From the IMG/VR virus record IMGVR_UViG_3300035698_017044, positions 1 to 21,712 of that record: DNA of 21,712 nucleotides; one strand, written 5' to 3'. Both the position numbers and the translations under genes were made by a program. Source of the DNA: a virus. The notes below the pieces were generated by a model. The model ran no database searches. It saw only the letters and a list, made by a program, of their open reading frames with translations, and was not told the DNA's origin. Within the stretch, counting starts at the first letter, position 1. Every line of letters begins with the position of its first letter. Shown piece after piece: positions 4,323 to 14,493 of the stretch.

Positions 4323-4380
4323 ACTGAGACTAAGGGTATTCAAGAGCCTACAGTATGAAATTGATCTACATAGAAGATTA

Positions 4381-4398
4381 GGCGGAAAGGTTTCCGCC
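4381..4398. repeat. Perfect inverted repeat GGCGGAAA-GG-TTTCCGCC
   Basis: Two 8-bp arms with a 2-bp centre sit in the leader of the protease gene, between the gpG stop and ATG 4322. No strong T-run follows on either strand, so a simple terminator is not evident. It is the most symmetrical of five related AG-YGGAA-N4-TTCC-type motifs in the window (also 8022, 9117, 10043 and 14478). Confidence 0.6.
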
Positions 4399-7963: not shown

Positions 7964-8021
7964 GAGATGCAAATACAAAGTGGATTTTGCATCATGTTGG
8001 ATTGATTAAAGGGAAATGATC

Positions 8022-8043
8022 AGACGGAAATGCTTCCACCGAG
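8022..8043. repeat. Border motif copy (AGACGGAAATGCTTCC)
   Basis: This 22-bp segment matches 9117-9138 at 19 of 22 positions in the same orientation. The pair flanks the methyltransferase gene. The core GGAA-ATGC-TTCC can form a small stem. It belongs to the five-member motif family discussed in the findings. Confidence 0.5.
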
Positions 8044-8186: not shown

Positions 8187-8957
8187 TTAGTAATTGGTGA
8201 TGATTAATTCCTGTTTTTGTTCCCGACCAGCGCCAGAGTTGCCCACAGTGTAATTAATTTTTGTGGTACTGATTTTAAGATCAGCAAAAGCATCTCGAAT
8301 GTCTGGATGATCATTGATTGACAACATGACTTTGCTTTGACAGGTTTTCATTAAGGTAGCCATCTTTAAATAATGATCCCATCCAAACTCAACCCCGTAC
8401 CCCGCCAATTTCCAATAAGGTGGGTCAGCATACATAAAACTATGAGGTCGGTCATACTTCGTCCAGCAATCATCCCAACTTAGGTTTTCAACTGTGACAC
8501 TTGAGAGCCTATAGTAAGCTTCGGTCAATTGATCTTCAATGCGCAAGAAACTCGGTGCTTTTGATGTCGTCGCTGTGCCAAATGTTTGACCAGAAGATTT
8601 TGCACCAAATGCAGTATGTTGCAGATAATAAAAACGAGCTGCACGTTGAATATCAGTCATTAAATCAGTACTGGCTGCTTTCAACCATTCAAACATTTGA
8701 CGACTTATAATTGCCCACTTAAATTGACGAATAAACTCTTCGAGATGATGTTGAACAACTCGATAGAGATTCACCAACTCGCCATTTACATCATTAATCA
8801 CTTCAACTTTTGAAGGTTGTTCTCGCATAAAAAACAGTGCTGCGCCACCAGCGAATAGCTCCACATAACATTTATGTTCAGGCATTTTTTGAATCAGTTG
8901 CGACACCAGACGACGTTTACCACCTAACCATGGAACAATTGGTTTAGTTTTCATCAT
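8187..8957 (-). CDS. D12-class (Dam-type) N6-adenine DNA methyltransferase
   Basis: The 256-residue protein has the D12/Dam-type order: PWLGGKRRL (9-17) near the N-terminus, the AdoMet-binding FAGGAAL (35-41), and the catalytic DPPY (178-181), with the target-recognition region between. It would methylate adenine at N6 in a short DNA site, possibly GATC, though specificity cannot be read from sequence. There is no restriction partner beside it, so it is probably a phage orphan enzyme that masks phage DNA from host restriction or alters host methylation. It lies on the late strand inside the accessory block between terminase and portal. AGGTGA precedes two adjacent ATGs (8957 and 8954); the second is better spaced. 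Both motif sets are intact, so an active enzyme is likely. Confidence 0.9.
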   Translation of the reverse strand: MMKTKPIVPWLGGKRRLVSQLIQKMPEHKCYVELFAGGAALFFMREQPSKVEVINDVNGELVNLYRVVQHHLEEFIRQFKWAIISRQMFEWLKAASTDLMTDIQRAARFYYLQHTAFGAKSSGQTFGTATTSKAPSFLRIEDQLTEAYYRLSSVTVENLSWDDCWTKYDRPHSFMYADPPYWKLAGYGVEFGWDHYLKMATLMKTCQSKVMLSINDHPDIRDAFADLKISTTKINYTVGNSGAGREQKQELIITNY

Positions 8958-9004
8958 TTCACCTACTGCAAAAGCTTTTCATTTTCTGATAGCCTCTATT
9001 TATC

Positions 9005-9129
9005 CTGTACAGGGTGCGAGGCTTTGCCTGCGGTAGTCGCTTACCAAAGGAGGCGGATCTTGCTCTAACAAGGTTCGTCGCCTCGTTTTATTATTTATGT
9101 TTATAACTTTCTAATAAGACGGAAATGAT
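9005..9129 (+). promoter_or_regulatory. Structured leader, copy 1, upstream of the DUF4145 gene
   Basis: This copy aligns along about 120 nt with 9941-10056. Its core is a 16-position stem, 9047-9062 with 9069-9084, closed over a CTCTAA loop (9063-9068), with 14 of 16 positions paired, followed by T-rich DNA (9085-9098). No + strand gene lies upstream, since the methyltransferase runs leftward from 8957. The hairpin therefore does not terminate a known gene: it is a leader/attenuator or the end of a small RNA. The conserved TATAAC-TTTCTAATAAGA stretch near 9103-9119 may hold the promoter, but I cannot place -35/-10 boxes confidently. Confidence 0.55.
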
Positions 9130-9138
9130 TCCAGTGAG
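9117..9138. repeat. Border motif copy (AGACGGAAATGATTCC)
   Basis: This segment is 19/22 identical to 8022-8043 in the same orientation, and lies between leader copy 1 and the start codon at 9147. It is the right-hand partner of the pair flanking the methyltransferase. Confidence 0.5.
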
Positions 9139-9146
9139 AATTGTGA

Positions 9147-9872
9147 ATGAGTACATTTGTTTTTGATTGCCCAAGCTGTAATGCTAAAAAAAGCACATTT
9201 GATGTTAAAGGACACACTCTAAGACCTTCATCTATTGAATATTTTAGTTGGGTTCTTTTTTCAACTTGTAGAGTTTGTTCTGAATCCTTTAGTGTTAATG
9301 CTGAAGTTGAATTACTTAAACATTCTACTTTAAAGCGACTCAATACTAGTAACCCTCAAGGAGTGTTTGTTAGTATCAAAAATTTTTTAGACACACATGT
9401 AGATATTTCTGGTTGGTTTGACGAATTTAATTATTCTCCAATTTTACCAAATGCAGAACTTCCACCAGAATATATTCCTTCCGATATTGAGGAAATTTTT
9501 AATGAAGCTGCTAAATGTTTTGCTATAGGTTGTTTCAATGCATCAGGAGCCATGTTTAGACTTTGTCTAGATATCACAACAAAACATATTCTTGTTCAAA
9601 ATCATAATTTAAGTCCATCAGCTAATGATAATAAATCTATACATAGTCGGTTGAATTGGATATTTAGTAAAAATATTTTACCTAGAGATTTAGAAGACTT
9701 ATCTAGAGGTATAAAAGATGACGGTAATGATGCTGCACACGATGGCACATTAACTAAAGATGATGCTGCAGATCTGCTAGACTTTACTTATATTCTACTA
9801 GAGAGAGTTTATACAGAGCCTGCTCGTGTTCAAAATGCGCAACAACGAAGAATAGCTCGTAGACAAAATTAA
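9147..9872 (+). CDS. Zinc-ribbon DUF4145 protein (accessory gene)
   Basis: In this 241-residue cytosolic protein, residues 8-44 carry two CxxC pairs (CPSC at 8-11 and CRVC at 41-44), a zinc ribbon. The rest fits DUF4145: a helical region (FNEAAKCFAIGCFNASGAMFRLCLDITTKHIL), LNWIFSKNILPRDLEDLSRGI, the hallmark GNDAAHDG (193-200), and TKDDAADLLDFTYILLERVYTEPARV. DUF4145 domains are often found with restriction or defence genes; the biochemical activity here is unknown. The gene is more AT-rich than its neighbours, stands on the strand opposite to the late operon, and has its own structured leader, all signs of a moron. The ribosome binding site is weak (GTGAG about 9 nt before ATG 9147). It may be expressed in the lysogen to exclude other phages; that is inference. 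Confidence 0.75.
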   Translation: MSTFVFDCPSCNAKKSTFDVKGHTLRPSSIEYFSWVLFSTCRVCSESFSVNAEVELLKHSTLKRLNTSNPQGVFVSIKNFLDTHVDISGWFDEFNYSPILPNAELPPEYIPSDIEEIFNEAAKCFAIGCFNASGAMFRLCLDITTKHILVQNHNLSPSANDNKSIHSRLNWIFSKNILPRDLEDLSRGIKDDGNDAAHDGTLTKDDAADLLDFTYILLERVYTEPARVQNAQQRRIARRQN

Positions 9873-9940
9873 TATTATATTGATTTTGATTATTTCAACA
9901 ACTGCAAAATAATTTCAATTTCTGGTGGTTTGAAGATAAT

Positions 9941-10056
9941 CTGTATAGTTTGACAAGGCTTTTACTGTGGTAGTGCATTTACTAAAGGTGATGAATCTTA
10001 CTCTAATAAGATTTATCACCTTATTTTTATAACCTTCTAATAAGATGGAAATTGAT
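9941..10056 (+). promoter_or_regulatory. Structured leader, copy 2, upstream of the membrane-protein gene
   Basis: This is the homologue of 9005-9129. Positions 9985-10000 pair with 10007-10022 as 16 continuous base pairs (one G-U) over the same CTCTAA loop (10001-10006), followed by ATTTTTAT. Relative to copy 1 the stem contains compensatory changes: C-G replaced by T-A at 9992/10015, and G-C by A-T at 10000/10007. Single changes elsewhere keep pairing through wobbles. A TTGACA at 9950-9955 resembles a -35 box, but no good -10 lies 16-18 nt downstream and the hexamer is not conserved in copy 1. The hairpin could also act as terminator for the preceding DUF4145 gene. Confidence 0.55.
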
Positions 10057-10058
10057 AC

Positions 10059-10817
10059 ATGTCTGTAATTAAAACATATTCCAAAATTTTACCCTTGGTA
10101 TTTGTATCTTTCCTATATTTAATTTCTATATTAATTTTGGGACTTGGTAACATTCCAGAAATAAAAGAAATGAAACCTAATGAATGGGGAGATTTCTTAG
10201 CTGGTACTTTTGCACCATTAGCTTTTATGTGGTTAGTATTTGGATATAAGCAACAAGGTGAGGAACTTAAACAAAATACAATAGCTCTGCGTTTACAAGC
10301 TGATGAGCTAAAAAACAATGTTGAGCAGCAAAAAATATTAGTTGCCGCTGCTAAAGATGAGTTGGCTCTAATTCAAAACAAAGATAAACGTCAAATAAAA
10401 TTAGAAACTCTTCAAGCTCAACCTTACTTTCATATTGATCAAATTACTTTAGCAACACATAGGTTGAATAATGAAATACAACTACATATTCATTTAAGCT
10501 TTAAGAATAGTAGAGCTTTATGCAGAAGTTTGTATTTTCTTTATAGTTTAGATGATATGGAGGAAAATCATATTTTAACTCATCAAAAATTTTCTATAGT
10601 TGATGGCGATATTAATGTAAATTATAGAACTAATATTATGATTCCTATAACCAATGAAGATTTAAGCTACTTCCCTAAAAAAATATTTTTAAATTTTAAC
10701 TACACTGACTTATATGATATTCCACAAATACAAAGTCTCTTGTTAACAATTGATGAAAAAATTCCTGATCATGAAAACCAACCATATCAGTGGATGATTA
10801 AATCTTATACTCATTAA
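10059..10817 (+). CDS. Two-TM coiled-coil membrane protein (accessory gene)
   Basis: The 252-residue protein has two hydrophobic segments: residues about 9-29 (ILPLVFVSFLYLISILILGLG) and 46-63 (FLAGTFAPLAFMWLVFGY), joined by a short polar loop with PNEWGDF. A coiled coil of about 50 residues follows (QQGEELKQNTIALRLQADELKNNVEQQ onward), then a soluble C-terminal domain of some 130 residues. The W-G-D-F-L-A-G-x-F-A-P-L-A-F motif is common in bacterial and prophage proteins of unknown function. Low GC, own leader and strand opposite to late genes mark it as a moron; a membrane sensor or exclusion protein is possible but unproven. Its stop and that of the convergent large terminase share the palindrome TTAA at 10814-10817, a very tight insertion. 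Confidence 0.7.
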   Translation: MSVIKTYSKILPLVFVSFLYLISILILGLGNIPEIKEMKPNEWGDFLAGTFAPLAFMWLVFGYKQQGEELKQNTIALRLQADELKNNVEQQKILVAAAKDELALIQNKDKRQIKLETLQAQPYFHIDQITLATHRLNNEIQLHIHLSFKNSRALCRSLYFLYSLDDMEENHILTHQKFSIVDGDINVNYRTNIMIPITNEDLSYFPKKIFLNFNYTDLYDIPQIQSLLLTIDEKIPDHENQPYQWMIKSYTH

Positions 10818-12364
10818 AGACATCCTACATCACTAACCCAATCAAAATCTTCAGGGTTCATTTCCATTTGCTCATGGGAAGGAAGTGCAATAAATTCAAT
10901 CGGTGTAGATGGGTTCTTACTCGCATAATCAGCCAATAAATGTGCAATACCACTATCACCGTGACGGTCTTTATTATTGCTGTTTGATCCAGTTGCGGGA
11001 ATACGCGCCACACCCTTGATCATAATAAAAGCGCGATGGTCTTCAATGATGTCCTGATCTGCGGGCATATTGACAATATCACCGTCTTCAAGTGCAGCTT
11101 TAAAATGTGGTGTATGTTCTCGATACCATGAATCTGTCAGCATAATTGCTTCAATACGGTCACCGAATTGGACTTGCATTGCTTCAGCTAAGAAGCCACC
11201 ATTTCCGCCAGCATCATGTGCGCCTTTGCTAAAGTTGGGTAACATTGCCACAATCAACTTTAAAAATTCTTCTTGTTGCTTATAAGGCGTTTTAAACATT
11301 TCAAAGACAAAGGGACAAGTCTTTTTCATGTTTTGTTCTTCAGCTAAAAGCCAAAATGAACAGGCGTTTTTTTTACGCGCAAAGTCTAGACCATAATAAC
11401 TTTTAATCTTCGGATTTAATTTTTCTAATAAAGGTTTTAGATTTTCATTGAAAAACTCTAGTACTTCGGCATTACGTGTATCTTCACTGACCTGCTCGAA
11501 ATTATCCCAACCTTCAGGTGCATTAAATCGAATGACTGGAATATCATCCTTTTTACGTGCATCCAATAATGCTTGGCTTAACCATTTACCGCCACTTTTT
11601 GAAGGAATTACATCAAGTTCCTCACCTGAAGCATCACCATAAAATTTATAAATTCCCTCAACCCATATTTTTTCTTCAACAATGTCATACTTTATTTTTT
11701 TGCGTAGGCAAACACGTTTGTATAGCCCCTGATCTACAGCTTCTTTAAATGTTGTACGATGAACAGTACCTTTACGTTTCCCTGATCGGACTTCTTTAAT
11801 CAGCTCATTGAATGGATTATCTTCACCATCATGTGTACTAATTACCCGAACACATCCACCCCAAATAAGTAATGCAATTGCAGCTTTTAACAATTCAGCT
11901 TGATCATCATGGAAAGCAAACTCATCCATGACGACACGTCCTTGCCGACCACGCATGTTGGAAGGTCTGGAAGTTAAAGCTTCAATTCGTTTGCCTGATT
12001 TTGGAAAACGAATAATATAGGTTTGGATATGTTTATCACCATCCTCCCATAAACCTTCTTCAACATCACAACATGCAGCATCAAAGGCTTTTGCCCACAT
12101 TGCACAAGCCTGAATAAATTCGACTGTCATATCTTTATTGTAGCCAAGATAATAACAATTCTGTCCACCTTCACTTGCCGCATCCAATACAGCATCGGCA
12201 GCTTCTGCCCAAGTTAAACCGATTCGACGTGATTTTTCTGCAATTTTTAGTTGGCTTTTATCTTCAATCCATGCCTGTTGATATGGGAGTAATACACTAG
12301 GAACATCACTGTAGCCCGCAAAGTTAAGCAACTCTTTAGGGTCAGTGACTTTAATCTCATTCAT
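10814..12364 (-). CDS. Large terminase subunit, Mu gp28-like
   Basis: This is the 516-residue DNA-packaging motor. The ATPase half has a Walker A-type EKSRRIGLT (43-51), the arginine-rich variant usual in terminases, and Walker B VVMDEFA (144-150) with the catalytic Glu; ISTHDG (175-180) follows as the coupling motif. The nuclease half shows acidic residues D327 in GLDFAR, D384 in HDAGGNGG and D470 in RHGDSG, in the expected order. The protein cuts and pumps DNA into the procapsid through the portal; Mu-type terminases package headful into flanking host DNA. The gene overlaps the small terminase stop by 4 nt (ATGA at 12361-12364). It ends head-on against the + strand membrane-protein gene. 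All motifs are intact. Confidence 0.92.
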   Translation of the reverse strand: MNEIKVTDPKELLNFAGYSDVPSVLLPYQQAWIEDKSQLKIAEKSRRIGLTWAEAADAVLDAASEGGQNCYYLGYNKDMTVEFIQACAMWAKAFDAACCDVEEGLWEDGDKHIQTYIIRFPKSGKRIEALTSRPSNMRGRQGRVVMDEFAFHDDQAELLKAAIALLIWGGCVRVISTHDGEDNPFNELIKEVRSGKRKGTVHRTTFKEAVDQGLYKRVCLRKKIKYDIVEEKIWVEGIYKFYGDASGEELDVIPSKSGGKWLSQALLDARKKDDIPVIRFNAPEGWDNFEQVSEDTRNAEVLEFFNENLKPLLEKLNPKIKSYYGLDFARKKNACSFWLLAEEQNMKKTCPFVFEMFKTPYKQQEEFLKLIVAMLPNFSKGAHDAGGNGGFLAEAMQVQFGDRIEAIMLTDSWYREHTPHFKAALEDGDIVNMPADQDIIEDHRAFIMIKGVARIPATGSNSNNKDRHGDSGIAHLLADYASKNPSTPIEFIALPSHEQMEMNPEDFDWVSDVGCL

Positions 12365-14446: not shown

Positions 14447-14477
14447 TCATATTGCTGCTTTAGCTGCTTTTAAATTA

Positions 14478-14493
14478 GGCGGAAGTGCTTCCG
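14478..14493. repeat. Border motif copy (GGCGGAAGTGCTTCCG)
   Basis: The inverted repeat CGGAA-GTGC-TTCCG lies 2 nt past the lipoprotein stop codon and before the terminator. It is related to copies at 4379, 8022, 9117 and 10043. It stands at the border between the lysogeny and lysis modules. Confidence 0.5.

Follow-up and report, generated by a model that had tools for sequence, protein, structure and literature searches.

A probable small-RNA gene head-to-head with DNA-modification genes in Mu-like Acinetobacter phages

Phage DNA modification guards against restriction and can be toxic early, and the com-mom operon of Mu is the textbook case of its tight control. The window analysed here, a whole stretch of 21,712 nt of viral DNA (IMG/VR record IMGVR_UViG_3300035698_017044), carries two unrelated accessory genes, each preceded by a copy of one hairpin-bearing segment and lying near a DNA adenine methylase gene, dam; this raises the question of what the segment is and which of its neighbours it serves. 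Domain and phrog profile searches mark the window as a Mu-like transposable phage (Mu portal, MuF and Gp27 domains, and a transposase), and its relatives are Acinetobacter prophages. The explanation that we favour as a whole, at a probability of roughly 0.55, is that an RNA gene lies antisense to the leader of the modification operon and would hold down modification until late transcription. An RNA outside Rfam at the same place in unrelated phages of Proteobacteria would add an RNA layer to modification control.

The two copies and their accessory genes

9002–9089, plus strand: predicted structured small RNA, copy 1, intact (97.5 bits against model R1, of which it is itself a member; fold, family covariation, strand test)
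9147–9872, plus strand: accessory gene 1, a DUF4145 protein, PD-T7-4-like (PF13643; phrog_1305; PADLOC defence model PDLC04109 PD-T7-4)
9938–10027, plus strand: copy 2 of the RNA, apparently decayed and displaced, with stem P3 lengthened to a perfect 16-bp terminator-like hairpin (79.8 bits against R1, itself a member)
10059–10817, plus strand: accessory gene 2, phrog_9267 family (146.5 bits), the commonest accessory gene at the site

A sequence-only reading of this DNA had described two diverged copies of a structured leader, and both are present where it placed them. The alignment of about 120 nt that it reported is real but too short, since homology spans 8948/9884 to 9126/10052: the 5′ part, from 8948/9884, shows 71% identity over 65 nt, copy 2 being there a relic of the start of dam, and the 3′ part, ending at 9126/10052, shows 91% over 32 nt. 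The T-tracts and the segment TATAAC-YTTCTAATAAGA-YGGAAA were likewise borne out, as was the lack of relationship between the downstream proteins (DUF4145 for gene 1, phrog_9267 for gene 2). The stem of 16 positions around a CTCTAA loop, read by eye, is fully paired in copy 2 (16/16) but only at 14/16 positions in copy 1, where the fold leaves a conserved mismatch of purines. For both hairpins stability exceeds that of dinucleotide shuffles (z −3.95 and −7.43 for the two copies).

Compensatory changes in the stem had been taken from the two copies alone. Because 23 of the 27 differences between them (two of which are one-base gaps) run from GC to AT, and none from AT to GC, pairwise compensation is weak evidence; it is covariation at the level of the family, described below, that is decisive. 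That the leader is the conserved unit, and that accessory genes accumulate beside it, was correctly seen. An integron attC-like cassette was considered and dropped, there being nothing similar after gene 2, and members without genes exist.

The RNA: structure, promoter and distribution

Pattern scans first showed the element in other phages, and the first covariance model was built from seven aligned sequences. RNAalifold, applied to seven sequences, gives a 5′ hairpin (P0) and, after it, a three-way junction that P1 closes, with double changes in 10 of 31 pairs; P0 and the P1-closed junction had been missed in the pairwise view of the two copies. The parts of copy 1, all on the plus strand, are these.

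9002–9015: P0
about 9016–9021 with 9081–9086: P1
about 9027–9050: P2
about 9052–9079: P3
9086–9089: U-tract

The search of Acinetobacter genomes with a covariance model that the sequence-only reading proposed returned further copies with their downstream genes, and where that reading had set its claim against a lack of such copies or of compensation, a family was found whose stems are kept. Across 42 distinct Moraxellaceae sequences, 97.1% of cells are paired, compared with 79.2% in shuffles, and 236 cells carry double changes, compared with 65, in a test that leans towards structure, the alignment having been fitted to the model; pairing falls to 41–48% once the partners are shifted by a single base. 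These sequences contain 24 covarying pairs, and a 20-sequence covariation test gave the same result. Pairing is also a property of one strand: 97.1% of cells pair on the plus strand as against 85.0% on the complement, with 166 G-U cells to 8 A-C, and all 42 sequences favour the plus strand. Covariation in P0, P1 and P2 as well led us to reject a terminator-only reading, and a DNA operator at the P0 dyad is unsupported, no second good copy occurring within the window. Within Acinetobacter, the core sequence of P2 is conserved beyond the needs of a purely cis-acting RNA.

A promoter for this RNA is predicted immediately upstream.

8967–8995, plus strand: putative RNA-gene promoter, TGCAAA (8967–8972), 17-nt spacer and extended −10 TGATAGCCT (8987–8995), by conservation

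In 52 of 61 family members TGNTANNNT is found 6–7 nt ahead of the position at which the modelled RNA begins (shuffles would give 2.3), and many members have a TGCAAA-like box 16–17 nt ahead of the −10. The element is thus predicted to be an extended −10 promoter of sigma-70 type. A generic consensus promoter scan did not list it, because its hexamers are far from TTGACA/TATAAT, and the argument for the promoter is one of conservation, not consensus. An extended −10 at fixed spacing would give the RNA its own promoter opposite the strand of dam, as in cis-antisense leader RNAs, so far as sequence can tell. Taken together, 9002–9089 is very probably a free-standing small-RNA gene of about 90 nt.

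With the first model the element was found in 15 of 176 Acinetobacter genomes, one of which (L170, 23.6 bits, within an open reading frame) was counted as a chance match. With a second model, 22 of 349 Moraxellaceae genomes gave the element, and a promoter-based pattern brought in new IMG/VR loci, 13 of which carry the RNA. Searches with less of the element were uninformative: blastn of the leader against phage and plasmid collections gave chance matches or none, and patterns of the tail motif or the loop motif alone gave mostly chance matches.

Further afield, com loci were drawn from Proteobacteria genomes and named phages, and dam loci from further phages. In a held-out test, a model trained on Moraxellaceae only was run unfiltered on 16 held-out phage loci, and its 13 top matches all fell at the predicted place and strand, off-target matches beginning at 14.9 bits. 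The loci matched were those of Pseudomonas phages B3, UMP151, JD024, PAN70, Komp_PAO1_1, Phipami28 and Bise, Burkholderia phages KS5 and Mana, Vibrio VP882, Halomonas phiHAP-1, Shewanella MuM16-1 and Curvibacter TJ1; Mu, Smp131 and DVM-2008 gave no RNA match with this Moraxellaceae-only model. The seven best matches among the genome com loci were at the predicted place, as were six clear and two weak matches in nine further dam phages, whose folds have the same layout. A homologue lies beside a prophage dam in 552 of 5,426 complete Escherichia coli genomes (for example L281:1244–1352 and L282:1248–1354); it has the same fold layout, one of two examples scoring weakly against the model, and in the records examined only the methylase, and no RNA feature, is annotated under the match. 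Strict-filter scans of whole genomes across the order and the phylum returned no member outside Moraxellaceae, so the wider spread rests on the com- and dam-anchored searches and, scores being low, the homology of distant members is argued from the combination of position, strand, fold and promoter. Between phages of different hosts the sequence has changed greatly, and fold and position are retained.

It is possible, if hardly probable, that a single undescribed class of structured RNA is common to the DNA-modification modules of temperate phages of Proteobacteria, either with Com or replacing it. Were this so, the class would be a dedicated RNA switch, or a counter-defence RNA, deciding when phage DNA is modified. 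Roughly one complete E. coli chromosome in ten carries the RNA, and laboratory E. coli offers a system for testing it directly.

Neighbouring genes and possible roles

8187–8957, minus strand: dam, D12-class DNA adenine methylase, head-to-head with the RNA (PF02086, 99.9 bits)
9090–9132, minus strand: late-promoter-like element aimed at dam, with palindrome GGAATCATTTCC (9132–9121) and AATAAT (9095–9090), containing the recurring TTARRCGGAANNNNTTCC
10814–12364, minus strand: terminase large subunit (terL; phrog_2, 115 bits), far border of the accessory-gene slot

The sequence-only reading framed the element as a leader of accessory genes. This was the wrong frame, since some members have no accessory gene, and the constant neighbour, prophage remnants excepted, is the first gene of a DNA-modification operon lying head-to-head with the RNA. 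In most Mu-like Acinetobacter phages that gene is dam, whose start codon in the window is 43 nt from the RNA 5′ end and whose ribosome-binding site the RNA does not cover. In other phages it is com (PF10122), and the gene or genes after com encode a D12 methylase, an N6/N4 methylase, or a formyltransferase together with an ABC/GNAT protein; com is present beside the RNA in many relatives, and PF10122 has no match in the window record. Inserted accessory genes excepted, the genes on either side of the unit formed by the RNA and the modification genes run antisense to the RNA. Two prophage remnants (L178, L181) have kept the RNA and accessory genes and lost dam. In four members (L175, L176, L206, L211) no accessory gene lies between the RNA and terL, and in the first two of these the RNA abuts the 3′ end of terL; the RNA is therefore not always followed by a gene on its own strand, as an attenuator or leader would be.

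Accessory genes, where present, lie between the RNA and terL, and are relatives of phrog_9267 in most cases and of DUF4145 in several. Homologues of gene 2 adjoin the RNA in most Mu-like Acinetobacter prophages; phrog_9267 proteins, which have no assigned function, occur in L177–L190 and L200–L218, sometimes two per phage, and DUF4145 relatives of gene 1 occupy the same slot in L178, L179, L186 and L200. Protein searches of viral contigs with genes 1 and 2 returned only one contig (L003), which carries the same sequences.

Several other features of these loci were recorded. A two-gene unit, an ABC-ATPase/GNAT fusion and a formyltransferase-like protein, follows the RNA (and com) at L175:6545–8168, L209:3275–4898, L201:7796–9404, L212:655–1387 and L224:7892–9497, and is possibly a Mom-like DNA modification pathway. 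In Pseudomonas phage Bise a gene annotated as reverse transcriptase family (L230:766–1797) lies directly beyond the RNA and the com-dam pair. At L238, a com-like locus, the sequence divergent from com contains a long inverted repeat of very high stability (z −4.75 and −6.63), which has no relation to the RNA.

The segment shared ahead of the two accessory genes proved to be one of four intergenic copies of TTARRCGGAANNNNTTCC (4378–4395, 8020–8037, 9115–9132 and 14475–14492), all in the same orientation and preceding head-protease, portal, dam and endolysin-side late genes; GGAANNNNTTCC occurs five times against 0.22 expected. Other Mu-like Acinetobacter phages have the same set of motifs, with an A+T-rich −10-like box about 26–32 nt further on, and in this group, the only one examined for it, a motif directed at dam lies about 35–45 nt beyond the RNA 3′ end. 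These are likely to be sites of a phage late activator (Mu C-like), and a Mu-type late activator would act at them. With a dam-facing motif just past the RNA 3′ end, and AATAAT beside it, the late dam mRNA is predicted to start at the 3′ border of the RNA, in which case its leader would carry the full complement of the RNA. An RNA gene with a late promoter beside it is easily misread as the leader of whatever accessory gene is inserted alongside.

Copy 2 stands differently.

9884–9937, plus strand: remnant, ahead of copy 2, of the start of dam and of the RNA promoter (repeat family D1)

Its −10 has changed from TGATAGCCT to TGGTGGTTT (9923–9931), making it the only one of 42 Moraxellaceae members without the extended −10, and the palindrome of its late motif is lost (GGAAATTGATAC). 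It keeps 28 of 31 consensus pairs, but its lowest-energy fold swaps P1 for a longer P3 (minimum free energy −26.4 without P1, −16.8 with it). Copy 2 has lost its promoter and its place beside dam. Given the lost −10, the lost palindrome, the drift from GC to AT and the dam relic upstream, it looks displaced and decaying; a second insertion, bringing a fresh RNA (copy 1) with gene 1, may have pushed the older copy off dam, its promoter being lost thereafter.

From RNA structure, strand, promoter position, neighbourhood, late-promoter motif and the state of copy 2, all of them computational observations, we infer transcription of the RNA, the start of the dam mRNA and an antisense effect. An RNA of about 90 nt would be made from its own extended −10 promoter, fold into a 5′ hairpin and a three-way junction, and end at a U-tract, lying head-to-head with, and antisense to, the leader of dam or, elsewhere, of com with a methylase or other modification enzyme. 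The late promoter of dam would start transcription at the RNA 3′ border, giving a dam mRNA leader complementary to the entire RNA. Transcribed in the lysogen or in the early phase of infection, the RNA would base-pair with that leader and keep DNA modification low until outrun by late transcription; accessory genes would have been inserted beyond the late promoter. That the RNA is a cis-antisense regulator of the modification operon has, in our estimate, about an even chance. It is favoured by the fixed head-to-head position and the late promoter at the RNA 3′ border, and because the fold outlasts sequence between phages and the RNA occurs where a modification gene sits in a late operon. As the ribosome-binding site of dam is left uncovered, any inhibition would need an indirect route, and conservation of the P2 core fits an RNA with a trans target or a protein partner just as well.

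The first of these, a trans-acting phage sRNA (C4-like or Hfq-dependent) with targets among host mRNAs or other mRNAs of the phage, its place beside modification genes reflecting co-inheritance, is unlikely but to be taken seriously. A free-standing gene with its own promoter and a core conserved within Acinetobacter would suit it, and phage sRNAs such as VpdS of VP882 do act in trans (PMC12197685); against this, Rfam C4 gives no match, and drift of sequence across hosts with retention of fold and position is the pattern of a cis-antisense or protein-binding RNA. Conservation of fold above sequence would also fit an RNA whose partner is a protein, either the zinc-ribbon protein Com or a defence protein of the host, and which serves a modification or counter-defence module as decoy or co-factor. 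Com, with its zinc ribbon (PF10122), adjoins many members, and Com of Mu is annotated as a translational regulator of Mom; yet in the window, which lacks PF10122, and in Mu-like dam-type phages, the neighbour is dam, not com, and we hold this reading improbable.

As to the three roles offered by the sequence-only reading, a small RNA with its own terminator gains support, whereas an attenuator and a cassette leader for foreign genes do not. As the primary role, that of structured leader or attenuator for the accessory genes is refuted, and the reading is very improbable: both copies do precede accessory genes on their own strand and contain terminator-like hairpins, and by read-through the RNA promoter is the only plus-strand promoter seen for gene 1, but members lack accessory genes, the genes downstream are unrelated, the segment on the start-codon side is a late-promoter-like motif for the other strand, and copy 2 has no promoter. 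Least probable is that divergent transcription alone, by a polymerase sitting or firing as at momP2 of Mu with its momP1/momP2 shift (PMC4287176), controls the operon and the RNA is a by-product, for in that case neither the 24 covarying pairs in 42 sequences nor the marked strand bias in G-U would be seen.

Comparison with known systems

The window has no match above gathering threshold in Rfam 15, and in E-value mode only sub-threshold chance matches; no description of this RNA was found in open-licence papers. C4 antisense RNAs lie upstream of an antirepressor (ant) operon that they control in trans, and are processed by RNase P at a GGW motif. RF01695 (C4) has no match at E≤5 in the window, in six other Moraxellaceae members or in eight com/dam phage loci, and the neighbours here are DNA-modification, late and accessory genes, not an ant operon, so identity with C4 was rejected. 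The likeness to C4 of P1/P7 and to the Acinetobacter baumannii Group 1 sRNAs (PMC5320573) is that of phage-borne RNAs of about 80–100 nt with three stems, in Acinetobacter; the difference is that the RNA of the window has a divergent methylase neighbour, its own putative promoter and a U-tract, where C4 has an antirepressor operon.

Phage VP882 carries a member of the family (L269:1356–1453) and also encodes VpdS, a trans-acting phage sRNA listed as Hfq-dependent and about 50 nt long (PMC12197685), which may be related to it. At Mu mom, polymerase shifts between the divergent promoters momP1 and momP2 (PMC4287176), an earlier example of divergent transcription at an operon of this kind, even though Mu lacks the RNA. 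Mu com-mom and the window alike have a modification operon led by com or a modification gene, with an opposite-firing promoter just upstream; they differ in that no such RNA is found at the Mu locus by model or eye, and the window has dam and no com. Genes 1 and 2 resemble phage morons, being single accessory genes between late genes in opposite orientation, whereas the RNA is independent of accessory genes and occurs also without them.

In FinP/traJ and CopA/CopT, a small structured cis-antisense RNA is transcribed from a promoter of its own that lies within the leader of its target gene. The RNA of the window, whose effect is a presumed one, differs from these in avoiding the ribosome-binding site and in belonging to temperate phages with a link to DNA modification; like them it is small and structured, with a putative promoter of its own, and it would lie inside the dam leader if the late dam mRNA starts at the RNA 3′ border as predicted.
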